Positions 18,508 to 59,700 of a stretch of DNA of 64,000 nt are shown here, piece by piece. Source of the stretch: Owenia fusiformis (lineage: Eukaryota > Annelida > Polychaeta > Sabellida > Oweniidae). Position numbers and translations under genes: made by a program. Position 1 is the first letter of the stretch. Every line of letters starts with the position of its first letter. Below the pieces are notes generated by a model. The model saw only the letters and a program-made list of their open reading frames with translations. It did no database searches and was not told the DNA's origin. The stretch lies in assembly GCA_903813345.2 (NCBI GenBank), contig CAIIXF020000005.1:9305375-9369374 (forward strand). The letters are read 5' to 3'.

Positions 18508-20187
18508 TGTCGCGCGCCAGACCTCTGCCAAGAACCCGTACCCTCTCGGAGAAAGTCTGGTGGCGATGTTTAGGGATTCGGAGGTGTTTTTCACGGGCGC
18601 CGAGCTTGTTTGGTGCTTCAGCTGTCACTGGGACTCAGAGATGGCATTTACATGTACAAAACAATGTTATACGGGATTTTTATACTCTATTTCAACACAC
18701 ATTTAATAACAGTAAACTTCAAAATGTCTTTCATGCCTTTATGGCTTACAAATATTAAAAAAATGTCTATAATGGGGTCAGCTATCTCAAAGATTCACTC
18801 AGCTCCGAAAACAAATCACACCCTCTGGAGTAGCTCAGCTCCGGAATGTATTACAGCTCTTCTGAAGTATCCCTGCTCTGGGATGTATAACGCCTCTTCT
18901 GGAGTATCTCTGCTTTGGGATGTAATACGCCTCTTCTGGAGTATCCCTGCTCTGGGATGTATAACGCCTCTTCTGGAGTATCCCTGCTCTGGGATGTATA
19001 ACGCCTCTTCTGGAGTATCCCTGCTCTGGGATGTATAACGCCTCTTCTGGAGTATCCCTGCTCTGGGATGTATAACGCCTCTTCTGGAGTATCCCTGCTC
19101 TAGGATGTATAACACCTCTTCTGGAGTATCCCTGCTCTAGGATGTATAACACCTCTTCTGGAGTTCCTCTACTCGGAGATATAAAACTCGGGAATGTCAA
19201 TCCCTAAGGAGATTAGACCGGAGTTGAATACCTCTTCGGGAGTATCTCTGCTCCGAAAGGAATAATGGACACACCTTCTAGAGTATTTATGCTCTGAGAT
19301 ATAAAACTCGGGAATGTCAATCCCTAAGGAGATTAGACCAGAGTTAAATAACTCACGGAAGTAATCCAAGATGGCGGATCAAGGGGAATTCTGGGTAGCA
19401 GAAGGGTGAAGTCACAAAATGGCTACTCAAAACTGTATGATCCAATATGGCGATCAACAGAGACGAAAGCAGGACCATAAATTTCAGTTATAAATGATGT
19501 AAATGTCTATAACAATTGGAAATGTCAATCCCTAAGGAGATTAGATCCCACGTTAATAGACCATAAAAAAAACTCTCTGGAGATCAAAGTGTAAATAGTA
19601 AATTATAACTCACCAACACTTTGGCCATACAAGCGCAACAAATATAATCCAAATACTTTATACTGTACATAAATCCTATCGCTACACGATCATCAACTGC
19701 TCCTTGTATTCTATTAAATACACACCAACAAAATAATCCAATAAAGTCCTTTACACATGTGTCTGCTATATTCCAATGTCCACACTGCGCGAGGTCTTGT
19801 CCATTCAACTTCCCAAGATCAACTGCGCACATGGGCCAGATTCTATGCTATCTCTCCTGTCTGATGATATGCAGCGGGAAACCCTCTGATTGGCTGAACT
19901 AGTTTGTTTATCCCATTTGGTGCTGCATTCTGGGTAACTTGCCTCTGACTGTCTGGCAAATATTCAAATTTCGTACAGGTTGAACAATTCTAATTGCAAG
20001 GGTTCCTCCAGCAACCAGAGCAAAGGACATCTTTACATCGTACATATATGAGCAATTTAACTCCACAAATGAGTCAATTGACTCTACATATAAAAAATGG
20101 CTAAATTAATAAATGCAATGATACAACATCTTCAGAATGACATAGTCCATGTAACATAAAATCACTAGCGAAACAAATTTTGTCACA
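18508..20187 (-). repeat. LTR (5' LTR in element orientation)
   Basis: 1680 bp. It carries eight 37-bp units (18864-19159) and a 99-base segment (18734-18832) that is missing from the other LTR. Elsewhere it is almost identical to 12737-14354, including the 82-residue open frame (19584-19832). Promoter elements should lie here by homology of function, but I could not pick out a TATA box with confidence. Confidence 0.9.
18864..19159. repeat. 37-bp minisatellite in second LTR, 8 units
   Basis: This is the same 37-bp unit as 12994-13326, with eight copies (296 b) against nine. The order of variant units matches at the right-hand end, so the copy-number change lies at the left side of the array. 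Confidence 0.95.
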
Positions 20188-26000: not shown

Positions 26001-29000
26001 TCAACTTATGTGTTATAATGGAATTAGCAGCACCATTTACATACTTTGAGCATCTGTGATGGAACACTTCAATATGTCAAGATCATAAAGTCAAGATTTG
26101 ACAACATATCATTTCAGAGTTCTATTATATGACCCATTGGCCCATTTAGATTGTTAATTAACTTCTGTAACGTCTTCCTTGTGGAACATTTTGCAGAGTC
26201 CCTTGACCCATTTCCTTTATTTTAAGTCAACCTCTGGAAAGTAAATGACACATCTCCAAAGAGGAGCACTTTTTCGAGGTACCAAAGGTGTTCCACTTAA
26301 GAAGAGAACTTTTTAGAGGAACCAAAGGTGTTTCACTTAAGAGTAGCACTTTTTAGAGGTACCAAATGTGTTCCACTTAAGAGGAGAACTTTTTAGATGT
26401 ACCAAAGGTGTTTCACTTAAGAGTAGCACTTTTTAGAGGTACCAAATGTGTTCCACTTAAGAGGAGCAATTTGAGAGGTACCAAAGGTGTTTCACTTAAG
26501 AGGAGCACTTTTTAGAGGTACCAAAGGTGTTCCACTTAAGAGGAGCACTTTTTAGAGGTACCAATAGTGTTCCACTTAAGAGCAGCACTTTTTAGAGGTA
26601 CCAAATGTGTTCCACTTAAGAGACACAATTTTTAGAGAAACAAAGGTGTTCCACTTAAAAAGGTGTTCCACTTAAGAGGCGCAATTTTTAGACAAACAAA
26701 GGTGTTCCACTTGAGAGGAGCACTCTTTAGAGGTACTAAAGGTGCTCCACTTAAAAGGAGCACTTTTTACTAGAGGTACCAAAGGTGTTCCAATTTTAAA
26801 AAATGTTATTTTTGTGTTAATTTTTCTCTATATATTTCTAGCGCCAGGGGAGGGAACCAAGACAGCCTTGTTAGAATGATCTTCCACATAGATTCCCTTC
26901 AGGTATGTATTTTGTCAAATAGACATAAATAATGATTAGCATGCATGTTTCCTTTCATATAGAACAATTTATTGCTAGTATTGCTTATATTCATTAATTG
27001 ATGTCCAAGAATAAATTATATGGAATATAGAATGAAAAAAATTCTAGATCAACAGTAGAACATATATTTTCATGTTTTTTTCAGACTTCGATGATGCACG
27101 TTCTTCTTGAGAAGCTGGCAGAGTTCAGCGCAGATGATTCTAATGTGTTGGAGGGTACAGAAACATTTAATCTACCACGTCTTATCCTCAACCAGTTCAG
27201 GTGGCTTGATAGAATTGTCAACTGCCAGGTATGTCATAATGTATATAATACATGTTATATCATATTTAGAGATGCCATTGATCTCCTTAGCTTTGATGCA
27301 GCTTTTAGAAATATAACTTGTATTCACTTCAAAACCCATTTTTGCCCACTTGAAAGTGATATGAATTATGAAACTTTTAATTTGCATAGTTTGACCGTTT
27401 TTGGACAGAATTGTGAAAATGCGAAAGGATGGGGAGTTGTTTGTCAAATGAATCAGGGTCGTTTTTTCATGCATTTCGCTTATGTTTTCATCCTAAAAAC
27501 ATCAATACACTTTAAAACATTTTATTGACTATAAGATTGCACCATATATCCCCATATGCCCCCCCCCCCTTTGCACTTCATGTAAAGGACATAGGATTCT
27601 CTATGAGGTAAAAAAGTAATACTGTATGTATATGTAGGAGTAGAGCTGTTTAAGCAGTTTATGGCTTCATAGGTAGCTGGCATTTATTTATTTCATCAAG
27701 TCTTAGAAATATATTTTTTTTAGATTTTTCCATTTTTTATGTCACCGCCAGAAGTGGTGACATATTGTTATACTCTCCAACTTTTTTATGGACAGTGTTC
27801 AGCGTTCAGAGTTCCGCGTCTGTAACAAGTTCTTACAACTTCCAATAACTTAGTAGTATTATTCAACCATCTGCAATAACTTACAAGGTGGTGACATTTT
27901 GTCATGTTTTAATATGCCTTGTTATATTTCAACTAACTGATATATATAACACATGTACAGTATTTATTTATCTTGTAAAGGAATTAGAAAGGATAGAGAG
28001 AGAGTAAAAGCATGCTAATATTTTATTTCAATGTGTAAAAGGATTTACCTTGAAATATAGTCAGAACTGTTGGACATTTCAGAAAATAGGCATTACATGG
28101 AATGATGAAAGCAAAAAATGGTATTATGAAATTTGACAATTTTTGAAACATTCAACCCATTTTTATCCCTTCTATTCCCTTTGAGATCTGAAAGTTTTTG
28201 ATTTTGTAAAAAGTACTTATATTATGCTCCCATCTTTTGATCATTATTGAACATTTTCCTTTAGTTGTTTCTTTTCTGTCAAGTTCAGTCTGATGATGAA
28301 CTGTTACTTTTTTGCATTCTTTGAACACATTTTTAAGTGGTGGAAATTCATTGAGCTTAGTAGTGTTATATTTGGTGATTATCTTAGTATGAGCCCCATT
28401 ATCATGACATCATCAATCATGGGTAGAATATTGTTTATACATTTTTGGCTCACACAGTCAGCCTATGGAATCGACCAGGCGTCCATCCGTCCGTTGGTCT
28501 GTCTGTCCATCCGTCCGTTGGTCCGTCCGTCCATCCGTTGGTCTGTCCATCAAAGGTCATCAAACTAGGTCACACAACTGTTCTATCTAAGTTTCTCAAA
28601 GTTCGAGACTACAAATCCAAATCAATTTTTTTTTTGTCAGGATATGCATTCTTCTGAAGGTTCCAAACTGTGTGAGCACAGGACCATGTGTCCTTCATTT
28701 TGTAACTGGCATTTGGTGCTCAGTGTCCAGGCCTGAAGCCAACTTTTGTCAAGGGGTTCACTTTTCAAAAAATTCCAGGTGGGTTCAGGTTTAACAAATT
28801 TAGCCCAAAATCACAGGAAAAGTGCTCAGAACGGTGAGAAGCTGCATGATTTTGAAAGAATTTTTAACCCTGAACCCCCCTGGCTACGGGTCCGGTGTTT
28901 GCATTGATGTTGATGACAAATTGCTATAATGTTTGTCATTGCTACTGGTGGCCTTTGTCATGTTATGATGTCTAATGTGTTCATTTTGATATCATAGGAC

Positions 29001-38000: not shown

Positions 38001-38792
38001 TTTCAAAAAGATTACGTATTGATGTAATACAATAATTATTCCATCAAATACATGTAATATACATGTATTATCAAAATATTTCTGTTCTCTTGATCAATGC
38101 ACTGTACAGGGTGTCAAATAAATATGTTCTCCCCCTAAACTTTAACATCCACAAAATGTTGCACAACATTTTAGTCTGTATGATATCTGCATTGTTCTTT
38201 AGCACCTTAAACTAGGCTCCATGAAGCAACTCTTAAAGTAGTCTCAGATGACTTGCTCAACTTTGTGCACTTTTATGCACAAAAGTTAATACTCTTGAAA
38301 TCAAGGGGAGAACATATTTATTTGTACATGTACATGTTGGTGTGTATAACATTGTTTTACTTTGCTTGCTGTATTATAGCCTTTCTTCTATTGCTTCTAT
38401 TTGACTTCAAAGAAACATTAAAATACAAAGAAACATTAAAATACAAACGATGACATGATCTGTCAAAATCATTATTCATTTGTTCCCCCCAACATAAATT
38501 TTATTATATGCCTTCTAACATTATGATACATGATCCATCAAAATTTTTCATTCGTTCCCCCAACATAAATTTTATTTTATTTGCCGTCTAAAATAATGAT
38601 ACAAATGTACTTAGATAAATGTTTACATCATAAAGATTGTGTATTACTAACTTTTCTCAGGAAATAGTTGGCCAGCTGGTAACTCACATTGGGAGTGGTA
38701 TGACAGCTGAAGTAGATGCCTCTTTAGCCATCCTAGCAGACCTTGTTAATACAAACTTACAGCGGATGGCACCATTTGCCATATTTGTTAAG
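23026..38792 (+). CDS. FANCD2: FANCD2 exons 1-14 (codons 1-500)
   Basis: Exons are 23026-23071, 24594-24716, 25115-25235, 25858-25908, 26842-26902, 27085-27228, 34266-34390, 35044-35131, 35595-35699, 36081-36175, 36481-36577, 37101-37277, 37639-37773 and 38661-38792. They sum to exactly 1500 bases, ending on the lysine codon. Every boundary is AG/GT and every phase matches. Weaker donors are GTGTGT after exon 12 and GTTAGG after exon 13. The part encoded is the N-terminal helical-repeat solenoid. Confidence 0.95.
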
Positions 38793-41700
38793 GTAAGAGT
38801 ATAATTAATTTAAGTAATGAATAAACATATTTTCAAGTATAAGATGAGAGGCTATACAGCAAAACCCTTTTAGAGTAAGAGTTTAATTAATTTAAGTAAT
38901 GAATAAACATATTTTCAAGTATTACATACCCAGAGAAGCATTTGTATTGAAGTCAATGGAGCTGAAGGTCGGCTATATATTCCTGTATAGCCGCCAAACC
39001 TTTTACCATGACAATCTTATGACGTCATCGGGACGTCATGTTTCATTTCTTCCTAATTTCACTCGCACACAGACACGTGGCGTCATTGATATAACGTAGC
39101 CATGATATAAAAGTATGTAATACAACAGTTATGTCCGTATCATTGAATATATGCCTTCGGTCTGTCGTAATATAACCCTCGCAAGCTCGGGCTATATTGG
39201 TGACAGACCTTAGGCATATATTCAATGATAGGGACATAACTGCTAAGTATAAGATGAGAGGCTATACAGCAAAACCCTTTTAGAGTAAGAGTTTAATTAA
39301 TTTAAGTAATGAATAAACATATTTTCAAGTATAAGATGAGAGGCTATACAGCAAAACCTGTCTTAGTGCAAAACCCTTTTTATAGTGAACCCTTCTTCAA
39401 GAAACATTTTACATTGGATTCTGTATAACATTTCTTCTCTATAGTGATCACCTACCTACAGTGAACATATTTTCAAGTATAAGATGAGAGGCTATACAGC
39501 AAAACCTGTCTAAGTGCAAAACCCCTTTTCTAGTGAACCCTTCTTCAAGAAACATTTTACATTGGATTCTGTATAACATTTCCTCTCTATAGTGATCACC
39601 TACCTACAGTGAACACTTTTTTGTGGCTCCATAGATGTTCACTGTGTACAGGTTTAATCAACATTACTGTCATTAGCATGGACTCTTATCAACATTAACT
39701 TAATGGACTTCATATCAGCATGGGCATAATCATCAAATATCGTCAGCACGCATCATATTTTTAACATGAACTTTATTGCCTGAATTATTTATTTGTAAAT
39801 AATTGACTCTGTATATATCATGATATATGTCATGATTGTTTGTCTGTCTGTCTGCATGCAACAGTTGCAAGTTTTATAACATCTGATTTTATAAGCTCTT
39901 TTTGCTCTATTATAGAAAAAAGCACCATGTGAGGATCCCTTAATTTCAAAACAGACCCCAGTTTTGTCAACAAAAAATTTGAAAATGAGTCTGTCTAAAC
40001 AATGGGGGGTGATTTTCCTTCAAACTGATTGTTTAAAGATATCGGGGTTTTGACTAAAAATAAGCATTAAGCAGTATAAAATTCTTTTTTTCAAAATACA
40101 ATCTCCCTAACTTTTCATTTCACTCCAAATTTTCTTATCTCTCAAATTCTCCCAAAATTCATAACTCCAGAAATAACCTGTAGTCCATTTTCAGTAATCA
40201 GATCAATACTTTGAAAAATAACATGAACACATTGTTAGAGAAATCGAAGTTCAATTTATTAGACATTCATTTATCAACCTTATTTCCATTTTTCAAATAC
40301 TACATATTACATAGGAACAAGTGCTACTAATCATTAGCCTGTGAATAAATATAGTACTGGAACTTCTTTTCCTGCCTTGTGCTATTCAACACATAAGGTA
40401 TGGTCATTAAGATCTAATTTGACAGATCCATGCAGCATCACTTTGGTCTGCATGCCTGTAATCTTGGCTAGACTCAAAGTGATAATGCATGAAACTTTAG
40501 TGTCCTTGGAAACACATCTAATCTACTCACAAAATACTAGGCTATAGGTATGGCCATTAACATCTAATTTGACAGATTCATGCAGCTTCACTTTGGTCTG
40601 CATGCCTGTAATCTTGGCTAGACTCAAAGTGATAATGCATGAAACTTTAGTGTCCTTGGATACACATCTAATCTACTCACAAAATACTAGGCTATAGGTA
40701 TGGCCATTAACATCTAATTTGACAGATTCATGCAGCTTCACTTTGGTCTGCATGCCTGTAATCTTGGCTAGACTCAAAGTGATAATGCATGAAACTTTAG
40801 TGTCCTTGGATACACATCTAATCTACTCACAAAATACTAGGCTATAGGTATGGTCATAAGGATCTAATTTGACAGATTCATGCAGCTTCACTTTGGTCTG
40901 CATGCCTGTAATCTAGGCTAGACTCAAAGTGATAATGCATGAAACTTTAGCGTCCTTGGAAACACATCTAATCAACTCACAAAATACTAGGCTATAGGTA
41001 TGGTCATTAGGATCTAATTCGACAGATTCATGTAGCATCACTTTGGTCTGCATGCCTGTAATCTAGGCTAGACTCAAAGTGATAATGCATGAAACTTTAG
41101 CGTCCTTGGAAACACATCTAATCAACTCACAAATACTAGGCTATAACAAATAATGCGAATAAATAACGATACAGACTTACAAATATCTTCTTATTGCATT
41201 TTATAAGACAGATCTTAATTCAACAGATTCATGCATCATCACTTTGATGTCTGTATGCCTGTATTCATGGTATACAATTTATATGTACCAGATCATTGCA
41301 CTTACATAACTCTTACATAATTCTCATTTCAATACTGACAGAGTTACAATATGCGTGTGGGCATGACATGTACATCATCTGTGGCAAACAGAGCCTATGA
41401 ATATTACCAAAGTATGGCTCAATATCTGTTGCATTGTTAGTACAAGGTGCACAGTCACTGAACCACCACCCAACACCGCCCATTTCTTCTGCACAGTGCC
41501 TTGTTGTAGAGGCATCGTTATCCATGTCATTGGCTGAGAATTTCATACCTCTGATTCCAAGGAGGGGATCATATGATTGACTCTCGGACAGAAGGTAGTC
41601 TTGGTCTGTTAAACAAGCTTCAGTATTTAGTTTACTTAAACAAGTGACTTTTAACAGTTCCCCCAATGTTATTTTGTATTGTTCTTGTTCATTAGCAACA

Positions 41701-44700
41701 TGGATATAATTGTACTCAAATTTATACTTTGTTTCAGGGAAACCTGAGTTTATTTTCGATTCCACCGCTAAAGAAAGGGAGTGTGACCTAGTACTTGTGA
41801 TATTATGTAACTTATCAAGTCCAATGAAATAATTTGAGCGGGTAGCATCTGGATTGTTTATGAATCCAGTCTTGTAGTCTTGCCATGGCCTTACAAATGT
41901 ACTCTCAGCAAAATTATAATATTCCAGTATTTTCGTTTTTGTTTGACTACATCGGGCTTGCATAGGGGTTGAAAGACCAGCTGGCCATGTAGGTAGATTC
42001 TTTACTCCTGGAACAGGCCATCTACTTTGAGCCTCAACACAGTCTGCAAAGTAGATTGACTCTATAACCATGACATATAAATGATATATCATTCACTACA
42101 TTTTGGTTTGAAAACTGTTTGGTTCATTTTTATCCCAATGAACAAAGTTCCGTAGGGATATAGTGAAACCCTTCGTCCGTCAGTCAGTCTGTCTGTCTGT
42201 CCGGAAGATAACTTGAATACTAGTAGACTGATTTTCTTCATATTTGGTGGAAAGTTTATATCAGTGATTAATTTTACGCAAAAACAATTTTTTAAGATGG
42301 CCAACACTTAAAAATGGCAGGACTTTTTCGCAAAAATCATAAATTTTTCATTTTAAACCAAAGTTATAAATATTATTGTTTGAAATTTTAAAAGTTTATT
42401 CACAACATCTTACTATTTCACATATATTCAATGTATTGCACCTTTGACCCCCCAGGGGCCATGAATGGGGGGTCGGGAAAACAGGAATTTGCATTAATTT
42501 TTAGATCTTTCTGAAGTATAGCTTTGTTGTACTCAAATGAAAGGCAATTTAGAGTAGATTGCAAATATTGTATCTTTGTCTGATTTGGCCCTTGTAAAAT
42601 TCAAAATGGCTGCCTAATATGAGATTTTTCAATAATTTTTGACACATTTAAAGAATGGCTTTATTATACTCAAATTGAAGGAAATTTAGAGTAGAGGTTT
42701 TTCTGATTTGTGCCTCAGAAAATTCAAAACGGGACCTAGCAGTGTGTGAGTGGTCTGACATGTCTCAGAGCAAAACAGGAATTTGCATTAATTTTGAGAT
42801 CTTTCTGAAGTATACCTTTATTATACTCAAATGAAAGGCAATTTAGAGTAGATTGCAAATATTGTATCGTTTTTCTGATTCGGGCCTCGTAAAATTCAAA
42901 ATGGCTGCCTAATGTGGGATTTCGCAATTGTTTTTTGATCTCTTAAAGTATTGCTATATTATACACAAGACAAAATCGTATGAAATAACTTGCGATAAGC
43001 TAGTTATTAAGCTTGTTATTATGGTCTTACTAGTGGTTATTATTGAGTAATGGTACAGGTATTCGATATGGTATTGCAGCTTACACTTAAGTAATGGTAC
43101 ACGTATCCTTGGATTTTAGGCCCGAATACCGAGGTTTATTTTTTTAATTATCGTGTATTATTATTTTGTGTTAATATTAGTTAACCATCTAACTATTGGC
43201 ATCATATGATAACCTTGTTATATTAATATAGCGCATAGGCGTAGCCAGGGGGATGTGATGTGTGCGATCGCACCCCCCCCCCCTCCATAACCAATGAAAA
43301 TAGAACCATTAGATAGAAGAAAAAAGTCTTAAAATGCTTTTTATTTGAAGCTTCTAGCTCGATTTTGAACGAAGTTGCACCAATTTTTGTAAAATTCAAA
43401 ACAAATCTTCAAAAACATTTTTTTATGCCACGATCGCACCCCCCTCCCTCCCCCCGACTGAAAGCTGGCTACGCCACTGTAACGTGTCATCAATACGCTA
43501 CATTTTGTATGTTCAATTTGTATACTAAAAACTGTTATTAATCCACAAATTTAGATGAAGACAAGATAAAAATTCGAATCAAGAATGAAAAGTTGTCTAA
43601 GTATATAAATCTTAAGGGTAATGCATATTTGAATTAAACAGAGGCGGGTTAATTTATATTGTGCTATGAATTACGCTATTATTCAAAATTGCAGCTAAGA
43701 TGCCTGTTTTATGATACCCTGCGTGCAGAGTCTAGTTAAACTACACTAAGACGAAGGTCTCTTTTAAGAAGTGAAGTCAAATGAATGCAAAGGGTAGTTT
43801 TATGAAAAATATCACGGAAGATGTATTCTAGATATCAGTAGTATTCTCAGAAATTTATTATTCGAAACGGATAACATCTGGCCACTCAGACAAACAATCG
43901 CAGACATAGGCTAAGCTTGTTTATTTAACAGTTAGATTTGTTGACTTACCGATCCGTATTTCAGTCTCCGGGAAGACGTTCTTTTCACTTTGTATTTGCG
44001 TGCAGTGTAATATAAGTTGATACTTTTGTTCAAAAAAATGTACTTTTAATGGCCATTTTATTTTCAAATTATGTTTTGTTTTGATGTCAGTGTGAAAAGA
44101 CAAGAAACTTCAACCCCGACTTTTAATTAAAAAATGTTGGCTAATCACTTATGGCAAATCACAAGGTTGATTATGTCAACGGACCATGATCGTGGAAGGC
44201 TATCAATATCAGGTGTTTATCGCATAGAAAATAAATATAGCTAATTTTTCGCACTGATATGATGATGACTATTCTGGCGAATCGGGTAGATATTTCTCAG
44301 TTTTTTCCGATAATAAAACTATTCATTTCTATCAATTTTACAAACGGGGTCCTTTGACTGCACATTAAAACTATAAAAGTATTTATTGGGCGTACATACT
44401 CGTTCTGTCATGTTACTTACATTTCATTTGCAAGTTGTCAACAAATTAATCCGGCGTTTTGTTTAATCAAATTTCCTGCCCCTTGGGGTTTCCGACTGTA
44501 AAACTTTTAATACTAACCAATGCTTCAGTTAATATTTTCAGAATACAAATTTTCCATTTTTATTTCTCTGATAGATAAAGTCTCATTTTGAATCTGTTCG
44601 TGTATTAAAGAGTATGCTTTTATAATGCCGTGGTCACATTTGCTCAGATTTTCAGCACCGGCGCCCGGCCGATGAGTATTTTGTTCAAAATTGTATTCAA

Positions 44701-47700
44701 TTCTGAACAAAATACTCAATCGGCCGGGCGCCGTAATGAAAATCGGAGCAAATGTTACCAGGTCATAACTGATGAAAAATCAAATGAGAACATGAACATG
44801 GATAATAGGGGCACTATTACGCTGCGTGCAGACTCTGCAGTGCAGAGTCTAATTATAAACTACGAGAAGACGAAACTCTCATTTAAGAAGTGAAGTCGAA
44901 CAAATGCAAAGGGTAGGGTACTATAGAAGGGGATCATATAAAAGCACGATCTATTTCACAACGCCTTTAACTTTTGTTCTTCAACTGTTGCCCTTTGTGC
45001 ATTTCAAAAATAAAATATCTTAATCTGATTTGTTCCACTTTTCTTTTCGCTCAGTTCTGCAATATTATGTCCATATGTTGTTTAGCATTATGTCATTTGC
45101 GAAATAGCTGTAAGACATTATGAGAATGAATATGGGAGTTTCCACGATAATGTTGTTCACATGATTTTATACACATACCTGCATAACAATCGGAGACAGA
45201 AGTCTTAATATTGTCCAATAAAAAATAAGAATCTAACATTTAATGATAACAAAAGGATTAATTGCTTAGTTCTCTTTGTTTTAGTCTTTGTTTTCTTAAA
45301 TGCGGAAGTGTACCAACATCACCTAGATTACATAAGAGATCATCTAACAGTCTAAAATTGCTTTTAATTGCAAGTTAATGCATTCCGACCAAAATTTGTA
45401 TACCTGTAATTTGGGGGGGCGATGTTACATCACATAACTACAACGTTCATATAGAAATATACAATAAGCATGTCCGTATAAAAGCTAAAATTATAAAAAC
45501 TCATTTCAAAGTCATTCTGTTCATGGAAGCGTCAAGTTATGAAAAACAATGCTAAACACTAAAACAAATCGACTTGATTAACCTTTAAAAACTTCTTGAG
45601 AGGAAATGGACAAATGTATTTTTCTAACTCATTAGAACGTCTGTCTGATTGAAATACTATTTTTTAAATACAAACATAAATGATTTAATCTTGGTCAGAA
45701 GTCTGAACATTGTCCAACAAAATAATAAGAATCTAACATTTAATGATTACAAAAGGATTAATTGCCATATAGTCTTTGTCTTAGTCTTTGTTTTTCTAAC
45801 GGCGGAAGTGTACCAACATCACCTTGATTACAGAAGAGATCATCTAACAGTCTAAAATTGCTTTTAATTCCCGGGTTTTAATTACATTTTATGTATAGAC
45901 TTTTTTGCCTCTATTCTCATTTTTAAACCTATTTCTGTTTGCGTATTTAACAATTGTGATAAATTATTCAGTTAGTGTCGAAATCAAAACAATTTTCTAC
46001 ATTATAGTCCCCTCCTCTTGCACTGACTAAATATTAAAATAAGCCAGTCTGATTGCGAATTTACAAATCCTGTAAAAGTAGCTTCAAACCGCCTTTTAAT
46101 CAGAGAAAACAATAAGTTAATTCATCTGATTGCGAAAATACGAATCAACCTGATTATCTGATCTCCATGCTATTTGATTCGTGCATTATCTACAAGTCAG
46201 TTGGGCAAGGGTGAAATTATTTCATTTGAAAACAGAAATAAATATCAGAACCCCTCTAGCATAACTATTCGGAAGAAATTCATACAAAAAATAAGGTACA
46301 CAACTGATGAAGGGTCGCACACAATGCACGCACCCCTCTCCTACTCCTCCGTGTTTGCCCACACACGACCATATTTGACAATTTTTCTAAAAGCGTTTTC
46401 CCCGGGAATATAGGTGTAGCGGTTGCCAGAAGTCACAGCTTGGGAGTCAGGGTATCCTGATCCATGCCTCAACGCCTGACGGGTCTGATATTTAGAGGGG
46501 GCGCAAGAATTATTAGGGGGCGAGGTAAACGTGAAAGTTGCCAAAATATCCATAGGCGTAGCCAGGAGGGGGGGGGGTGCGATGGGTGCGATAACAATAG
46601 GCTTTATATATGCTTTAATGTTTTATTTATCATGATGCTTTTATGTAGGCTATTAATTACAGTTCTTTTTGCAATATAAAACTGGTATGTTTATGCAAAT
46701 TCCGATTGGACTAATATAAAGGGATATTGTTTCATTATGTGGACTTGAGAAAGTCCGACATACTCATTGCTTTCAACCCAAAACTTAAAATAGGAAGTTA
46801 TCAAGATCCCAAGAACACGATCGCTACTTAAACAATACGTTTGTAAAATCCCGGCGATCGAAATGCAATCAAACTTTCGCAATCAGGTGCCTAATTAGTC
46901 TTTTGATCTCTAAAGTTTTACGACTGAATGTTTCAATGAACTCGTGAGAAGCAAACGCAATCATCATATAAACATTTTTCTAGTAAATCTAAAATAGAGT
47001 AAAACCCAGGGAAAAAGATCGCGTGTTCATAGGAATTAGGCATATTTCAATTTTGAAATAACAAAAGTCAGTCTCGGAAGAATTTTCCAAGCATTCACTG
47101 CTTCGATGCGTTTTTATTGCAAGGGCCGTTTAGCGCCGATATGAATTCATTATAGGGCATTAGGGTTGTGCTTTATTTGTTTTATTTATATAAATGTTAT
47201 AAAATGTGTTCGACACTTTAATGAATTATTTTTAGGGTTACAATGCTTATTTGACTTTTCCCTCTAAAGGTTTAAAATTCATCTTTATATTTTTCTTAGT
47301 TTGCTTCAATAAAATTAACATTGGATCCCAGACAGTTATCAAATTCTCAGACATTTGATTAATATAGATATTTGTACTTCCTTTGACCAGTGGTGCTGGT
47401 GTGACTGAGATTCGAATCTAATCTGTTTCATTTTTATGTAAATTGAGAGGAATAAAGTTTTATTTTAAGCGTTTTAACGTTTGGCGTGCAGCTCAACTTA
47501 ATACACAATCAAAGGTCAGAATACAAAAATAAGAACATGCCTTTTATTTGTTATTCAAGCTCGAGCAATATCCCCGTTATAAAACCAAAATAACTGCGGT
47601 TAGGTACCACATCTTGATTACAGTAAAGACAGGCCATCTCATTCTGGTATGCCAGAGCCACTCTTATCTGCCGATTGTGGAAGGATAAAGACAAAGGGGT

Positions 47701-50700
47701 CGCGGCTATCGCGATGAGGCCATCTTATTTCTAGGAATTATTTCTGCCTCTCATTCCTTAAACCGGCTTCGTTAAACAGTGCCAAAATATATAAGTCGGG
47801 GCCAAAAACAAGACTATTTTTATATTTAAATCCCCTGACCTTGTCAATGTCTATGCCTGCATCTGGTTTTCCCACCTTTGGGAGGGAGCCAATATACACA
47901 TAGATTACTTACTGGCCATGGACAGGGGGGGGGGGGCACAGAAACGAACATTCTGGGGTCATAAGGGATACTTGGGGAAGGGGGAGGGGTGGTGGTGAAT
48001 AGTGAAGTCCGGGAGTGAAGTTAAGGGGTACTGAAATCTTTCTTTTGATATTTAGTGCTTGAATGGAGACTTGTTTCCACTCCCCGCATTCTAGTAGAAT
48101 TTAAATATTTGATCCAAAGGAGTTATTTTAAATCAAACTTGCATTCCGATTAAATAACACTCCAATGATTGTGCCGCTTCACTATTGTCTAAGATAATTA
48201 TAATGAATTCACGGGACACTATAGTCTTCCTTTTAAACTTTAGTGGTTGGATGGAGACTTGTTTCCCCACCCCGTACACTTGTAAATTTGTAAATTTTAA
48301 ATATTTGATTTAGGGAGGTATTTGCAATCCAACTCTGATGATGCAAGACTAGTCAGCCAAGACTAAATTATGAACTTATTATCATTTGGACTATTGAGTT
48401 CATTAAATTATAATTCCATAGATATCATATTTAATCCTGTCAACACAATAATGGTATTAATTGGCATGATTTGTAGTTACCCTGCGTGCAGAGTCTAGTT
48501 AAACTACAAGACGAAGCTCTCTTTTAAGAAGTGAAGTCAAACGATTGCAAAGGGTAATTTGTAGTCAGAGACAGTTTAAAAAGTTGTTTAGATTAATGAT
48601 AGTATTAGGAAAAATCCTAACTCAAAGTTTTTGTTCTCTCGCAATCCAGAGCAAACCACTCGCCGGGCAAGCATTCTTTAAAAACGTGAAGTTTTCACCA
48701 TGTTGAGCAGTTTTGAAAATTGTCCAATTTGAACCATCGCCTTGTATATTTCTGTAACAGCCCCCCCCCCCTTTGACACTCGAGTGTAAGAATCCTTTCC
48801 ACACTGTCAATGGTTTTACAAAATAGTTCATGTCAGGAAGGGGGAGGGGTGAGTGTGGAGAACAATCACTGACTGCGATTTGTATGATTGAACATTATAC
48901 ACTTATCATAAATTCGTTAAGAATAGTTTTAAAATAAACAGCTTGTTTTATGTTATGATTGGAGTGATGTATGCATAGAAGAACGACACTGGTTTTGAAA
49001 TATCTTTATTATCCCATTGAATGAAGCCATCCGTCCCTCTTTTCATTCTTAACTCATACTAGTGGACTGATTTGATTTAAAGGAGAAGTCTCGATGTAGA
49101 ACGTGTACACACTAATGGGAACGAATTTTACTCATTTCTATTTAGGATTCGTTCATATACTAGCGGGGCTTTAGAGCATTTACAAACGCACGAATTGTAT
49201 TGTTTTAAGGCAACTTTTATGACATATAATGTATTTAAAGCTGATTAATTTTAGATTATATTCGGTTCAATTTTACAAATAATGAATAGTTTTACAGTAT
49301 ATCGAAAAATATACAATGATTTACATTAAATCGCGCAGACTGCAAACAATGTACATGGTTGGCGAATTTGCATGCGCGTTCTTGATAATAAGAATTAAAG
49401 GTTGAACTTAAAAATCAAACATTTTCTTTTTTAAACATAATAAATCTTTAAATCAAGAAAATAAAAATAAGATTGATGATTGAACTTTTCATAGTCAACT
49501 GCGACTGTGTCGACGCATGTTTATTTACTTAGCTAATTAGATATGTAAAATTGTTAATGGCCGCAACGGATAATACGTACATGTAAGCTGTTCGGATAAG
49601 ACATTTCTATATGATTAATAACAAATCCCGGGCAGAATGTTATTCAACAGTACTTGATCTTATTAGTTATTATTCAATTTGGATAATAAATCTATTATCT
49701 TGTCGTATTGATGTTTATTATATAGTGTTTCTCGTTGTGATACTCAAATTGAAGGAATTTTAGAGTAGATCACAATTACATTTATGGTACTGTTTTTTTG
49801 ATTTGCGCCTCAGAAAATACCAAATGGCTGCCTTGCCTCTTAATTTTTCATTTCTTAACAAAGTACTGAATATTACTAATTGTAATTTTGGTAATTGATA
49901 TATTGTTCATTGGGATTTGCTACTCCATGGAGTGGCAGTTTTCTAGTTTATAGAACATTAATTACTGTATGATATATCGTATGATCTGTAAAATGAAGCC
50001 TTCTAATTGGTCAGTTCTTGTGCTGTACCAATCTGTATTGCTACTGAGATTTCCCCCATTGATTATCTCCGTCGCAATACAGAAAATATTGATACGGAGG
50101 GGACATTCTCAGTAGCAATACAGAGCATCACACGATAAAAAAGGTTATAGAATAATTTGAAGTGCAATACAGGATATATTCTGCTCTCAATATTCTGTAT
50201 TGGCACTCGACTTTGTCTCCTGCCAATACTGAATTTCTCGAGCAGAATATATCCTGTATTGCACTTCAAATCATTCAATAACTTATAGTATTGTCATGTG
50301 TACGTACAATTTATGTTTGAATATCCATTGAATTTTGGTATATTGTAAAAGCATGATATTCTTCTATACAGGGGAATAGTAAAATCCTGTATATGGAAAT
50401 AATTCATCGCTTTTATAATATCAATGACACATAAGTGAACCAGTTATAATTTCTGCATTATTCTTACCAGTAACAATATGTTCACAGACATCACCATAGT
50501 AACCCATAGCACACACGCAGGTGTCATACCATTTGGTGCCTCCATTTTTACAGTCTGGCAACACTGAAAACAAGACAGGATGCTTTATTTTTTACATTCA
50601 ACCATGGCCCCTATACTAATCAAATTGTGTTTTGTTGTTCATTATTATAAGAGACTTTGAATAAGGGTTGGAGCCCAAAGTAAAAAATTACCGTACAAGA

Positions 50701-53700
50701 TACAACTAGTCATATACTTAAATTCATTTCATTTAAGGATTTAAGTCCTGGACTCAGTGAAATGTATAATGACCATTCCTTGAAGGTGTTGCTTTTACAA
50801 AATTTGCACAAGTTGCGCCAGCATCGAGTATTGATTTTAGGAAAAAATGCCCGAAAGGAATGGTCATTCCACAATTCATTGAGTTCAGGGGTTAAATTAT
50901 TATCACACATTGCACAATATTTATACAATACCACTAAAAAGATATGAAATGACCTAAAAGAATATGTTTTCAAGTAATCTTTTTGCAAGGGTCAATTTGT
51001 CACTTCTGTTTGTCGGTATCATGGATTGTCACCATGACAACCATACAACAATTAACATTTGACCTGCATAAGCACATAGCTTGTTATTCCCTATGGTACT
51101 ATTTATAGAATTTTACTCAAATGTGAACTTATCAGCTTCTCTGTTTCATAAGTTTCAATAGAATCGAGAATGAGCGACCTAGGGTGAATTCTTGGTTATA
51201 TAATTGCACGCAGTTATTTAAAATAGAGTTTTCAGATTGGCTGGAATATTACATACATGTACCTTGCCTAGCTATGTGTGAATATATTTTATACCTTACC
51301 TATGTAATAGTGATCAATTCCTTGCACAGGGGTAGGTGGGGTCAATGAGATGCTTGGCCCATTCAGTTGACACAGCTTCTTGTTTGAGCCACGGGATGTT
51401 TCTATATTGAATGTTTTGCAGCTTTCTCCAATCTTGCTGCATGCCAGACTGCATCGTAATGTGCTTCTAACCATCAACTCACTTATTAGTGTCTCTGTTT
51501 TTTGAGCATTTTTGATGTTCACATATGATCTTTGTTGAAACTGACCGGCATTAGTAACTTTTATTTCCCCGATAACAAGTATGAGAACTTTTAGAAAAGA
51601 AAGCCATATTCCTCTCATTTTGCCAACAACCTTTTCATTTAGACAAAGCGTTCATAGTTTACAGTTGTTATTAGGACGACATTTGCTTTTCTCAAAAAAC
51701 AGAATCGTGCGATTTGCTGAGATATTGAAATATGAAACGTCAATGCATATGATTAAAGAGAATAGAACATGCAAATGACTTTATTTTATTTTATATAATA
51801 TTATAAAAATATGTATTGATTAACTATGTGTTGAAAGTATCAAATGCACTAGCTGCACTTTCATTAACAATACTAATCTTCACAACCTAGATGAATAGAA
51901 AATATTGTTTTTTTTAATTATATGTCATGATATCTCTCCTGACGCTTGGTGCATTCTGTACTCTTTCGATTGTTTGACTAGGATAAAAGCAGTACAAATT
52001 GGAAATAGACTAAAAATAATCATTTGAGCTAAAAAATATGTTAAGCAAATATCATGGTAAAGCAGAGACATATAAAACATTTATATGTCTCTGGGTAGTT
52101 AATAAAAAATCAATGTTTATCAGGGACCATGGGTAACATATATTGTCTGTTTTAATGATTGGCATGGCAACCTGTAGTACATGATAAAACAATTCGTGTC
52201 AACTGAACACATGTACAGGTACACTGTATATGCCAGTGTGATTCCAGCCAAGTTAGATGAATACTGTGGTTCATCAATCAAAACCAATGAACTGATCATT
52301 ATTATATTTATGTATGATTTTTATACTATATTTATGGAATTGCCATTTTTGGTAGTATTTATTGAATTATTGGCCCCTTTATGTACAAAAACCCATTATC
52401 CAAGCATTGGGTTTTAATCAGCAAACAATGAAACAAGTCAGAACTTCAAACTTTAACATCATTGTCAGTTACTCTTGATACTTTATGTATTGTCCATATC
52501 ATACTGTAGTCTTGTGTCATTCATAATAGGTGGCCTGGGCTACCTAGATAACCCATGTATTGTTTGTATATCTACAGAGTTGTGCTGTAATACCTAGAAA
52601 ACATATATATTGTATGTACCACCCTTAAAATACTGAGGCAACCTGTATATTGTATGTATATCTACGGGTTGAACTTGAATACATAGAAAACCTATATACA
52701 TATTGTGTGTATATCTATCTACAGGGTGTTCTTAACTTCATATACAACCTGTATGGTGTATGTTTATCTACAGGGTGTCCTGGACTACCTAGACAACCTA
52801 TATATTGTATGTACATCTACAGGGTGATCTTAACTTAATATACAACCTGTATGGTGTATGTGTATTAACAGGGTGTGCTGGACTACATAGACAACTTATA
52901 TATTGTATGTACATCTACAGGGTTTTCTTAACTTAATATACAACCTGTATGGTGTATGTGTATTAACAGGGTGTGCTGGACTACATAGACAACTTATATA
53001 TTGTATGTACATCTACAGGGTTTTCTTAACTTAATATACAACCTGTATGGTGTATGTGTATTAACAGGGTGTCCTGGACTACCTAGACAACCTATATATT
53101 GTATGTACATCTACAGGGTGATCTTAACTTAATATACAACCTGTATGGTGTATGTTTATTAACAGGGTGTGCTTGACTACCTAGACAGCCTAAATATTGT
53201 ATGTACATCTACAGGGTGTCCTTAACTTCATATATAATCTGTATGGTGTATGTTTATCTACAGGGTGTGCTGGACTACCTAGACAGCCTAAATATTGTAT
53301 GTACATCTACAGGGTGTTCTTAACTTCATATACAACCTGTATGGTGTTTGTTTATTTACAGGGTGTGCTGGACTACCTAGACAACCTATCTATGAGTCAG
53401 ATCAGAAAGCTCTACTCCATGCTCAGTATGCTAGCCTTCCAACCTGGTGAGGAAGGGGGCCTCATACAAGATGACCTACACATTGTCATTAGAAAACAAC
53501 TCTCCAATAACAACACAAGGTTTGTACAAAAACATTTCAAAATGTTAAATTGAGGTTATTATGTCACCACCAAAAGTAGTGACATATTGATATGGTGTCC
53601 GTTTTCTGTGACAGCAGTTTACGAGCTTTAGATTTGAGATTTCACCTTCAATGACCTCTCAAGGTCAAAAAAGGTCAAAAGGTCATTTTTCAACTTGCTT

Positions 53701-56700
53701 CAAATTGACCAAATTTTTTTCAAATTAACAAGGTCTCAGAAATTCAAATCTGACTTTAGATTTTGAGATTTGACCTTCAATGACCCTCTCAAGGTCAAAA
53801 ACGTAAAAAAATCAACTTGCTTCAAATTGATCAAATTTTTTTTCAAAATCATTTTTAAGTTCCCAGAATTTAAAATCTGGCTTGATATTTCAGTTTTCAC
53901 CTTCAAGGTCAAAAAAGGGTTAAAAGATCTTTTTTTTAAAAGAACTTCTTCTAATTGACCAAATTTTTATTTCAAATTGAAATCTGATTTTTAGATTTAA
54001 GACTTGACCTTTATTGACCTTCTCAAGGTAAAAGGTAAAAAAGGTCAACCTTTCAACTTGCTTCAAATTGACCAAATTTTTTTCAAAATCATCTACAAGT
54101 TCTCAGAAGTTCAAATCAGACTAAGATTGAACTTATAATATTGTGAGCAATTATGTGGTGACATTTTGTCATGTTAATGCCTTGTGATGATATGTGTTTG
54201 GGAGTTCAAGGTTATTTTATATTGATTATAGAGTGAATACTGGAAATTATGCATATCACCTGTATTGAGCGAATAAGGAGGACAGGGTGGGATGAATTTG
54301 AGACCTGTAAATATGAGACCCCTTAAATATATTAAAAAAATTCCCTTGATAACCTTGAGGACTTTAGTACTTAACCTGTCTTCAAAATAAAGTAAAACAT
54401 GCATTTGTTTCAGATACAAGAGGATGGGTATTATAGGTGCTCTTATGGTGGTTAAGTGTATGGCCAGTACAAAGTAAGTTCTATACAGTTACTATAGTTA
54501 CTTCAGTTACAGTTACGTTATCACAATATCAAGTTCCTTTAGTGGCTCAATATTGTAAATGTGTAAGCCAAAAAAGGCCAAAGAGCAACATTTTGAACTT
54601 TTTGTGTCGCCACTACAAGTGGTGACATTGTTATAGTCTCTAATTGTTTTGTGAATGGTGTTTAGTGATTGGTGTTCAGCATCTGTAACAAATGTCAGTT
54701 GGTGACATTTTGCATGTTTTTGCCTTGTCTATAAAGAATTGATTGATTTTAGGCCTGATTCAAGTCTTGACAACTCCTCAACTTTAGACACGGGGGTATC
54801 AGAAGACATCTATAATCAAGTAGTTAACCTGCTGCAACTGGTACGTGCCAGTAGTGACTCAGTACCAGAGACTTCTGCTCTCTTCATGGATGAACTTGCC
54901 TGTATTGTGGAACAAGGGAACTTGGACACTAAGGTTGAGGTAGGGTGTCACTTCTTTCTTTTCCAACATATTGTTGCCTAGGTATTTTATGGTACCATCT
55001 GGCCTTTTCCAAAGAGGATTGGATCCCAGGGTTCTAACTCAATATTTTTAATCTCCAAGCAAATTGTTCAGTGCTGATTTCTACATCAAAGAATGCACGA
55101 ATGAACTGCAAGGAGAGTGACTGATATTCTAGGGATATCCGCCACAACAATCAAAATGTTGCTAATGTCTGACTTAAAACTGGCAATAAGTTCATAATCA
55201 GCCATTCAAAAGATTTGAACTAGATAGAATCTTGATCACTTCTTGTGTGTTTTGAAATTTTTTGTTGGAAATAAGACCAAAACTCGCGATTCAAATTCTG
55301 AAGAGAAAAAATGACGGCTGTTTAATTTTGAATTTTGAAATCATGTCATGACTCCATACATATTACAGTTGGGACCATGGGAGCCAATCCTCCCGGGTCT
55401 TACCTTGACACTTGACATCAAATTATTGTGAACCCTTTTACTTGCAACCATTTGAAACATGTTGCATCATGGGCCTTCAACTAATTGAAAGCCCATGGTT
55501 GCATCAAGTAGCCATGAAATTACGTATGAACTCATTCCAACAATACCAATGAAAAAATTGATAAGGATAGCTTCGGGAATGAATGCCTACAGTACATAAC
55601 ACTCTTCTAAATGATACTTGACATGTTTTAATGTACATTGTCTTTCATTTTCAGACATGGATCAGTGAGAATGTAATTAGTGATTTCCAGGACGATTATG
55701 TGGTTGATATAGACAAATCACCCAATACAAGGTTTGTGGATAATATCTCTAACATACATTGAAATGGGACATATAACAGTCCTTCTACGCATCTGAATTT
55801 AAATGTTGGTTTATGTTTTTGTTGGTTTTGCAAACATGTGTGACATACATATCCAATGAATTTGAAAATGAAATAAAATAGCTTTAAGGTGATTAGGTTT
55901 CTCATGGTCTTGCCTATGTTGCCTCAGTAATAAAGAAAACTATCTGATAAAATTTGCCCAGTTTTTGTTTGCAGCATTTTTATAGAAAATCTGTATATTT
56001 ATTTATAGTAAATAATAAAAGAGAGAGAATGCACAGCATTTTTTCACATATTGGCTAAAACTACCTGGATATTATTTGAGGCCTACATTACTCCTTGTAC
56101 ATTTCTATAATTTCCACATTCTTTTCTTCAGAAACAGTCTTCTAGAATGGGAGTCTCTACTTGGCTTAGATGATGAAGAGGAGGGAGGTATAGCAATCAA
56201 CCTGCTCCCACTTCTCATGCAGAATATGAAACAAAAACAAACACTTACTAATCACAGTAAATCGAAACAAAGGTATATATCTAAAGGATAGCTACATGTA
56301 CGTGAAACAAATATTAATTAATCATAGTAAATCAAAACAAAGGTAAACATCTAAAGGATAGCTACGTGAAACCTGTAAACTGGAACGCCTCCTGAAGTGA
56401 AACACCTCTTTTAGTGGAACACTTCAGAGTCCTAAGACCAACTGACTTAATGTTAAATGAACCTCTATAAATGGAACACCTCCCAAATGAAACACTTTTT
56501 AGAGGTACTTAAGGTGTTCCACGTAGACAGGTTTTACTGTGCGTATCATGAAAGTATGCCTGATACTGTTTCACAAAACTTTGAAAGACATTTTTGCTAA
56601 CAATATACTAGGCAAACGAAGGAAGTTCTGTAGGAATGTATGTAATGAAATGCTTGTTTGTAGGTTAGTGTCTCCAGCTGGTCTAGCCCCACACTTTAGA

Positions 56701-59700
56701 CTGTTGCATTTAATGAAATGCTTGTTTGTAGGTTAGTGTCTCCAGCTGGTCTAGCCCCACACTTTAGACTGTTGCATGTAATGAAATGCTTGTTTGTAGG
56801 TTAGTCTCTCCAGCTGGTCTAGCCCCACACTTTAGACTGTTGCATTTAATGAAATGCTTGTTTGTAGGTTAGTCTCTCCAGCTGGTCTAGCCCCACACTT
56901 TAGACTGTTGTATGTAATGAAATGCTTGTTTGTAGGTTAGTGTCTCCAGCTGGTCTAGCCCCACACTTTAGACTGTTGCATTTAATGAAATGCTTGTTTG
57001 TAGGTTAGTGTCTCCAGCTGGTCTAGCCCCACACTTTAGACTGTTCATTTAATGAAATGCTTGTTTGTAGGTTAGTGTCTCCAGCTGGTCTAGCCCCACA
57101 CTTTAGACTGTTGTATGTAATGAAATGCTTGTTTGTAGGTTAGTCTCTCCAGCTGGTCTAGCCCCACACTTTAGACTGTTACGTGTGTGTGAGCAGAAAC
57201 AACGCAATGGCAATCTGGAAGAGATAGATGCACTGCTAGGTAAGGCCAAAGAACTTGTTTCTGTTCATAATATCACAAACAAGACATTATTTAGAGCATG
57301 TTACAGATAGTTACGATTGGTAAGTGAGTAAGAAATTGATCTCTGCTAAAAATTTATAGAAAGTGTCGATTTCGATGGAGCGAGTCTCATACTGGTTATA
57401 CATACATTCATACTTAAATATCATATAATATATAACAGTTCTTCCATTTGTTGGAAATATGATTTAATCATAGTTAATAGTTGGTTTTAAGTAGAGACAA
57501 ATGCAAAAACATACTGTTATGATTTCTTGCAGGGTGTCCTGTGAATATGTTCAAGATGGAAATATTAAGCAAGGTTGAATCTCTGTCATCCACAGAGAAA
57601 GAACTCATCTGTTCATCTATGTTCTATCTGGTCAACTGGTTTAGAGAGGTAGGTAATAACATTGTACCCATGCATCTTAAGAAAAGACACACCAGTTGTA
57701 AGATAATCCTCATGCACAAACATCTCTTTGTGCTGTGAACATTGAATTGAATTGACAAAATAGAAAATAAGAAAAATAGCAGAGTCTTATTAATAATGTC
57801 AATCAATGAAAAGCACAATGTATGATATTATAAGTACTGTTAATAAGTATGAACACAGGAAGTCACAAAATCAGTCTAAGTATATATTATGTTAAATCAC
57901 ATTACAGGTTGTAAATGCCTTTGCCAGTCAGGATGACCCAGAAATGAAGGGCAAAGTTATCTCTCGACTCCAGGCCATCACAACTATTCACAAACAACTC
58001 GAGAAATGTCTTTCAGGTATTTCCCCATCTTTGATAATTATTGTTTTATTTTAATCTATGTCACCACAAGAAGTGATGACATATTTTGTAAGTATGAGTG
58101 ATGCCATATTGTTATAGACTCCAACATTTTTGTGGATGATGGTGTTCGATGGTCAGCGACTGCCTTTTAACATTGAGAGTTTGGTGTCTGTAACAAATGG
58201 TGGTGGCACTTTGCATGTTAATGCCTTGTTTAAAAAGTCCAATGCAGCTAGACCTAAAATGATTAAAATTGACTTAATTGAAATATCAATTGGGATAAAA
58301 ATGAAAGTAATATGTGTTTTGAATTGCATTATGATTATAGTTGTCGGGAAATATGTTCCCCCTGTGTGTCACTTTGCTGCCGAAGATTCACTTCTACCCA
58401 CAGTTAGTAAACCTCCTCAAGCTGCACGAAATCCAAAGAAAGCTTTGAATAAAAGGTAACACTACAAAGTGATCTGTCCTGCATTGGAGCATGGGGGTGC
58501 AGTACCCATTTAAGATTTTGTAAATGTGCTTGCACCCACCTGACAACATTTGGCAATTTAAAAGAATGCGTAGTGTAGTCACCTCACATGGCCTTTTGAG
58601 CTAATTATTTTGATGTATATCCACTTATGTGATATTATGGTATATCAATAAATAGATAAATGCCCATACATGAGTAAAAGTAATGTAAATTCATAAATTA
58701 AAATCTATGTACAAATTCATAAATTGAAATCCATGTACGAAGTTACATCTAGGTTCATGATTTGTAGGAAGCGGGATAGCCCTGACACCACCATTGACAG
58801 CCAAACTAGTCAAGTAAGTGAAAGGCTGAATGGCAAATTATTAGAATATCAATTGTCCCAGTAGATGTAATGTACAAAGCCAAATATGATACACTTGAAG
58901 GTAAGGCTGATAATGCCTTCACCAAAACCACTACAAGTGTATGTACTTTATGTATTTGTAAAATAAATTCTATGAATGAAAAATAAAAAAAAGGTAACAG
59001 AGATACACAAAGACACAACTATGTAATGTAAATGTTATTAGCCATGAGGAAACACATCCCAACAACTCTTCCATAGAAGAGATTTATCTATAATTTGGTT
59101 TTGCTAAAATATACAAAAACCATGTGCCTGCAGAATCATAATTTTTGTTTCAGACAACCCAGTTAAACAAGTCAACAGAAGATGATAAAGTTCCTTCAAA
59201 TGGACCTTCCATCAGTATAGCCAACTATAAATATTATTTTAGGTAAAGTATACTTGAGGTGGTTTATACACACGCAATGCTAATAAATAGTTTTAAAGTT
59301 TTATACCTTCTTTGCATGGTGCTTGATTTAATATTCAGAGATGAAATATAGAGTGTTTTCTCCAAAACTGCTACAGATATCACCTTCAAATTTTCAGGGA
59401 TAACTTATGAGTGCCTATTGTAGATGTGGATGAAAAAAATTTAACTAGAAACCTACTTCCTGTCTGCCATTTTGAAGTCAAATGCTAAAATCCTTGTCTG
59501 CAAACTTTAAGAAAAACTGCTTCACAGTTGCTTTTAAAACTTTAATATCTTGTTCAGCTCACTTCATTCTAGATCCGGTTAGGTTTTGGACCTGTTAGCT
59601 CAGTCATGTCCGCCATTTTGAATGTCTTTTTACAAGGGTTAGAAAAGTTAGAGCGCGATAATACTTTTTATCATATTGAATGGTGTTTTTGAGTTTTCAT

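Follow-up and report, generated by a model that had tools for sequence, protein, structure and literature searches.

Minisatellites that repeat the junction between an intron and an exon have been named mirages in cephalochordates. The consulted parts of the amphioxus papers place them in Adh3, in the globin genes BflGb6 and BflGb9 and in troponin C, and liken repeats in PGBD5 to them (PMC3087553, PMC3902484). The same sources report copy-number differences between haplotypes and somatic instability of the arrays, and they propose a role in intron gain (PMC3087553, PMC3902484); regular splicing is reported as undisturbed (PMC3087553). According to the part of a further paper that we consulted, human genes in segmental duplications carry minisatellite-type repeats at exon-intron boundaries, with 27 intron modifications described (PMC2812944). 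There too gene structure is altered by the repeats, as in the locus described below, and novel introns result, many of them with an alternative transcript in which the repeat is retained; unlike the present arrays, the human ones have an average unit of 30 bp in about four copies and lie in recently duplicated primate genes (PMC2812944). In Caenorhabditis elegans, according to the part of a study that we consulted, minisatellites are enriched in introns near alternative exons and do not span a splice site.

The arrays described here share tandem units, a homogenised core and a worn edge with ordinary intronic minisatellites or VNTRs, but their unit holds a live splice site together with coding sequence. 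Tandem acceptors of the NAGNAG kind also compete for one exon, and there the sites lie 3 nt apart and both are used; the acceptors here are 42–159 nt apart, and the FANCD2 decoys mostly break the frame.

The window that we analysed is a stretch of 64,000 nucleotides in a 42-Mb contig (C5) of a 498-Mb animal assembly. Matches to the Pfam families that we searched for in this assembly are confined to contigs C1–C12, except for five on C124. Whereas mirages were named in cephalochordates, this host has matches to annelid haemoglobin linkers: three matches to the erythrocruorin linker family PF16915 exceed the cut-off, and the best PDB match is Hemoglobin linker 1 (E 0.0025). The genome of the annelid Owenia fusiformis is given as 505.8 Mb with 12 chromosome-scale scaffolds in the part of its description that we consulted (PMC9977687). 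The linker matches and the dozen large contigs make an annelid host probable and amphioxus improbable.

A Pfam search found one FANCD2 locus in the 498-Mb assembly, as 24 stretches matching PF14631 that are ordered on a single strand of C5. Sixteen of them score over the Pfam cut-off, and parts of model positions 69–1398 (of 1418) are covered. Within the window the gene extends from about 25.1 kb to beyond the right end. It looks intact; the idea of a pseudogene or gene fragment was rejected once the upstream exons that phmmer had missed (E up to 0.001) were recovered by the Pfam search. The features around the first array are as follows.

38661..38792, + strand: upstream FANCD2 exon, ending in ...AIFVK, donor AAG/GTAAGA, phase 0 (Pfam match, open frame, splice signals)
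38793..53361, + strand: intron of 14,569 bp that ends in array 1 (exon model)
52529..52724, + strand: worn 5′ copies of the unit, 30–42 of 49 positions identical to a unit
52725..53361, + strand: array 1, 13 units of 49 bp that alternate between types B and A (TRF and register reading)
53360..53361, + strand: genuine acceptor AG, the 14th and last (FANCD2 coding continues from it; top generic score of the 14)
53362..53519, + strand: FANCD2 exon of 158 nt, donor AAG/GTTTGT (PF14631, model)
53494..53496, + strand: lysine codon equivalent to human K561 (PDB FANCD2 alignment, counted by hand)

The upstream exon corresponds to a Pfam match at C5:9344020-9344169 (model positions 469–518), the exon behind array 1 matches PF14631 over 54 residues (53362–53523, E 1.8e-17), and the joined exon translations match PDB FANCD2 chains. 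In the PDB chain of 1451 residues GILDYLDN begins at 516, and counting on from there makes the K of IRKQLSS residue 561, which we take to be the ubiquitinated residue of FANCD2. Its codon belongs to the exon opened by the genuine acceptor of array 1, 132 bp downstream of the exon start, so the array lies 5′ of it; the earlier note had placed the array immediately 3′ of this codon.

The 14.5-kb intron has a probable occupant of its own, a nested gene on the minus strand (window 41313–51651) with a Fibrinogen_C match at 2.9e-16 and with EGF and PAN matches under the Pfam cut-off.

Array 1 was called by TRF at 52717–53393 with period 98, 6.9 copies and 93% match. Each 49-bp unit follows an intact decoy AG, and the final unit closes with the genuine one, such that 14 AGs stand in register at 52723, 52772 and so on to 53360 (52723 + 49n). 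A unit comprises about 28 nt of exon start and about 21 nt of intron end. The six A-type units are identical to the first 28 exon bases at 25–27 positions and the seven B-type units at 19–21; mean identity is 94% among A units, 91% among B units and 71% between the types. The tail just before the genuine exon is of type B, with 18–21 of 21 positions identical to B tails and 15 to A tails. TRF, unit register, Pfam and PDB thus agree with the earlier description of a minisatellite that combines a splice acceptor with the start of a FANCD2 exon, its genuine site last, as do the period (49 bp, or 98 bp with alternation) and the run of 14 acceptors.

The extent proposed before, 52724–53361, is too short on the 5′ side. 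Worn copies start at 52529 (42 of 49 positions identical to a unit), 52579 (36), 52619 (34) and 52668 (30); among 3000 49-mers sampled at random from the first 50 kb of the window, the top value was 27 of 49. The array therefore begins earlier than had been thought.

As read from the sequence, the anatomy of array 1 is that of a mirage. In the consulted parts of the amphioxus reports, mirage units measure 10–160 bp and sit at 5′ or 3′ exon boundaries, AG or GT is found in many copies though missing from others, edge copies escape homogenisation and several genes per genome are affected; the arrays described here resemble them in all these respects.

Acceptors and donors were scored with a generic matrix not trained on the host species, which gives 6.5 for the genuine acceptor of array 1 and 2.0–4.6 for its 13 decoys. 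Joining the upstream exon to a decoy leads in 12 of 13 cases to a stop 17–45 codons past the junction; the decoy at 53215, which adds 147 nt, stays open.

FANCD2 contains a second array of this kind.

56643..57180, + strand: array 2, 7.9 copies at 97% of a 68-bp unit that combines the final 26 nt of the intron with the opening 42 nt of the exon
57137..57138, + strand: genuine acceptor of array 2, the 8th and last
57139..57239, + strand: FANCD2 exon after array 2, donor TAG/GTAAGG (Pfam match 724–759, PDB alignment, phase with the preceding exon)

The intron that ends in array 2 is 866 bp long in the exon model. Use of any of its seven decoys leads to a stop 16–24 codons on. All eight acceptors, decoys and genuine, share the same last 20 nt and score equally; site strength therefore cannot explain the choice among them. 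Joining the upstream exon to any of the eight creates AAG/GTTAGT, a donor-like sequence from which a further splicing step could in principle take place.

Two other kinds of explanation were tried for these arrays and rejected. One was a dispersed repeat family inserted at the exon: DNA searches of the assembly with both arrays matched only their own places (common words were skipped and the best candidates alone were scored). The other was an RNA structure concealing the decoys: shuffle tests showed no unusual fold, with z 0.81 for array 1 (20 shuffles) and z −0.01 for array 2 (100 shuffles).

Our main reading, to which we give a probability of about three in four, is that array 1 is a near-neutral mirage minisatellite that arose by tandem duplication over an intron-exon junction of an intact-looking FANCD2. 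Duplication of 49 bp, roughly the last 21 nt of the intron together with the first 28 nt of the exon, would have produced two versions, A and B, that diverged; the 98-bp pair would then have multiplied and been homogenised, and the outermost copies on the 5′ side would have decayed meanwhile. This is the simplest history. Growth would be by slippage or unequal exchange and close to neutral. The array copies would be spliced out because they fall on the intron side, and only the last copy would join the rest of the exon; in the reading of the DNA alone, FANCD2 exon sequence follows the terminal copy only.

How the last acceptor comes to be chosen we can only infer. The spliceosome may pick it by exon definition, pairing it with the donor 158 nt downstream, and in array 1 the better pyrimidine tract of the genuine site may help; wrong choices would be removed as premature-stop transcripts. 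Against such an exon-proximal choice, a first-come model predicts use of the 5′-most acceptor, and the sites of array 2 are equal in strength. Human boundary repeats are often kept in alternative transcripts; leaky site choice is therefore a real possibility, and our confidence that FANCD2 splicing is undisturbed is lowered accordingly. Were a wrong acceptor taken in FANCD2, the protein would in most cases end short of the ubiquitination site.

The genome was sampled at 60 loci surrounding the top-scoring exons for kinesin and for UCH (ubiquitin hydrolase), 170,569 distinct bases in all. The loci thus represent the highest matches and therefore conserved exons; several of them overlap. TRF arrays with a period of at least 20 and at least 2.4 copies cover 7.1% of these bases and number 32 distinct arrays. 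Judged by reading frame, at least 11 of these extend across a coding splice junction, eight at an acceptor and three at a donor. Junction arrays were recognised from the reading frames of ten loci picked by unit sequence, and 11 is a lower bound: among the 21 arrays left out, four were frame-checked (one in L012, two in L058, one in L043) and 17 were judged by unit only. By side, they are distributed over the loci as follows.

Acceptor side: L008 (two arrays), L020, L028, L035, L043, L051, L056
Donor side: L029, L056, L058

Nine of the 11 have a family match or PDB evidence, either overlapping the array or with E of at most 0.0033, three of them below the Pfam cut-off. Overlap is seen for L043, L051 and the donor array of L056. 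Pfam Kinesin matches accompany the 42-bp array of L008 (1e-7) and the array of L028 (2e-9), and L029 matches a PDB kinesin heavy chain (4e-11). The matches below Pfam cut-offs are Kinesin_assoc for the 93-bp array of L008 (0.0033), Microtub_bd for L020 (0.0019) and UCH for L058 (0.0018). L035 matches UCH weakly (E 0.039), and no Pfam match was obtained for the acceptor array of L056; both presumably belong to USP genes, to judge by their resemblance to USP sequences.

The earlier note had considered a tandem array of this kind unusual. A second array in the same gene, the at least 11 of 32 sampled arrays on coding junctions and a class known from amphioxus and human genes speak otherwise for this genome. 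Mirage-type arrays are apparently frequent in the host genome and are probably a known kind in a new phylum. The literature that we searched, mostly by title and the start of the abstract, yielded no description of such arrays in annelids, which is not proof of absence.

Several further observations concern similar arrays. Locus L064 (C2:23265700-23270500, minus strand), fetched since its copies showed in the kinesin search and kept outside the sample counts, repeats a kinesin exon start with its acceptor in a 159-bp unit of 17.9 copies. With up to 18 copies it differs from the amphioxus mirages, where the consulted parts of the reports give six and three for the BflGb6 haplotypes. A USP gene at L065 (C9:8170700-8174600, minus strand) has a 150-bp acceptor array of about 11 copies in which one frame runs open for 666 codons; splicing to an early acceptor could therefore add 50-residue repeats in frame. 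At C2:4915297-4916006 (minus strand) five SNF2 matches to about the same part of the model (from 143) follow one another about 140 bp apart, probably another array of this kind.

We compared the placement of arrays at exon edges with chance. Loci L061–L063 proved to be additional copies of the array in L051 and were left out when exons were counted, leaving 57 of 60. Among these 57 stretches an array includes the acceptor side in two and the donor side in one; among the 24 FANCD2 stretches the counts are two and none. Edge rules differ between the sets, an array having to cover the match edge in the loci and, in FANCD2, to lie no more than 10 nt away from it. Arrays cover 7.8% of the FANCD2 gene and 7.1% of the loci, and about six edges per side are expected by chance; the pooled counts are four of 81 for acceptors and one of 81 for donors. 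Over these 81 stretches there is no enrichment of arrays at exon edges over coverage, and therefore no call for a function. The junction arrays look like that share of a heavy minisatellite load which by chance lies on junctions and is tolerated. The low donor-edge count is a hint only. By side, 10 of the 13 junction arrays are at acceptors and three at donors (11 to three with L064), and since they were partly judged by eye a bias towards acceptors is suggestive only.

The placement bears on the alternative that decoys are functional, acting as poison acceptors that set or regulate the FANCD2 level through premature-stop transcripts. A stop does follow from 19 of the 20 register decoys of the two FANCD2 arrays, and AG is kept in 84 of 89 decoys over 11 acceptor arrays (both FANCD2 arrays and L064 included); over three donor arrays GT is kept in 15 of 16. 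Decoys thus give no sign of being purged, but homogenisation alone can retain AGs and could preserve decoys generally. The same structure recurs in unrelated genes (kinesins and USPs), and exon edges are not enriched in arrays over coverage. We consider regulation by poison acceptors unlikely.

A function of another sort, for which we hold out rather less hope, would be help for a distant acceptor: with many branch points and pyrimidine tracts closing a 14.5-kb intron, inclusion of the exon could become more likely. The length of the array 1 intron (14,569 bp) suits this idea, but array 2 closes an intron of 866 bp, and arrays at acceptors are no more frequent than coverage predicts.

It is slightly less probable again that array 1 is an assembly artefact, with a differing copy number or an error of collapse or expansion. 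One amphioxus mirage appeared aberrantly assembled in a draft genome, according to the part of the report that we consulted (PMC3087553), and the copy number of array 1 may be off. Graded divergence of the units, worn 5′ copies and two unit types argue for a real array, as do its position in a 42-Mb contig and similar arrays elsewhere in the genome.

Least probable by our estimate is that the units are 33-nt in-frame microexons (AG ... GTATGT) which add 11-residue repeats to FANCD2: GTATGT does stand 33 nt past the AG in 12 of 13 units (GTTTGT in the last) and the first 17 codons after every decoy are stop-free, but the donors of the units come out at −0.1 (B) and −0.8 (A), against at least 1.6 for the top donor in 13 of the 16 FANCD2 stretches with a candidate, and only 16 nt separate each from the next AG.

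A wider proposition goes beyond FANCD2. Splice-site minisatellites would be pervasive in this probably annelid genome, with about one in 20 acceptors accompanied by a tandem row of near-identical intact decoys (thousands by extrapolation), exon-proximal choice among identical acceptors would be general and robust, and the arrays would serve as natural tests of exon definition versus first-come choice and as a source of new introns; our belief in this wider proposition is evenly balanced. Were the last of eight acceptors with the same final 20 bases reliably used, array 2 and its likes would provide such tests. Minisatellites that duplicate exon boundaries would also be frequent beyond chordates, as raw material for intron gain and for shifts of splice sites.

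The window holds other arrays as well. Two, at 12968–13331 and 18824–19164, have a nearly identical 37-bp unit and lie 5.5 kb apart. The 40-bp unit of a third (26259–26792, with AGAGGTACCAAAGGTGTTCCACTT in it) resembles a lone stretch at about 56490–56525, as if it were a dispersed repeat.
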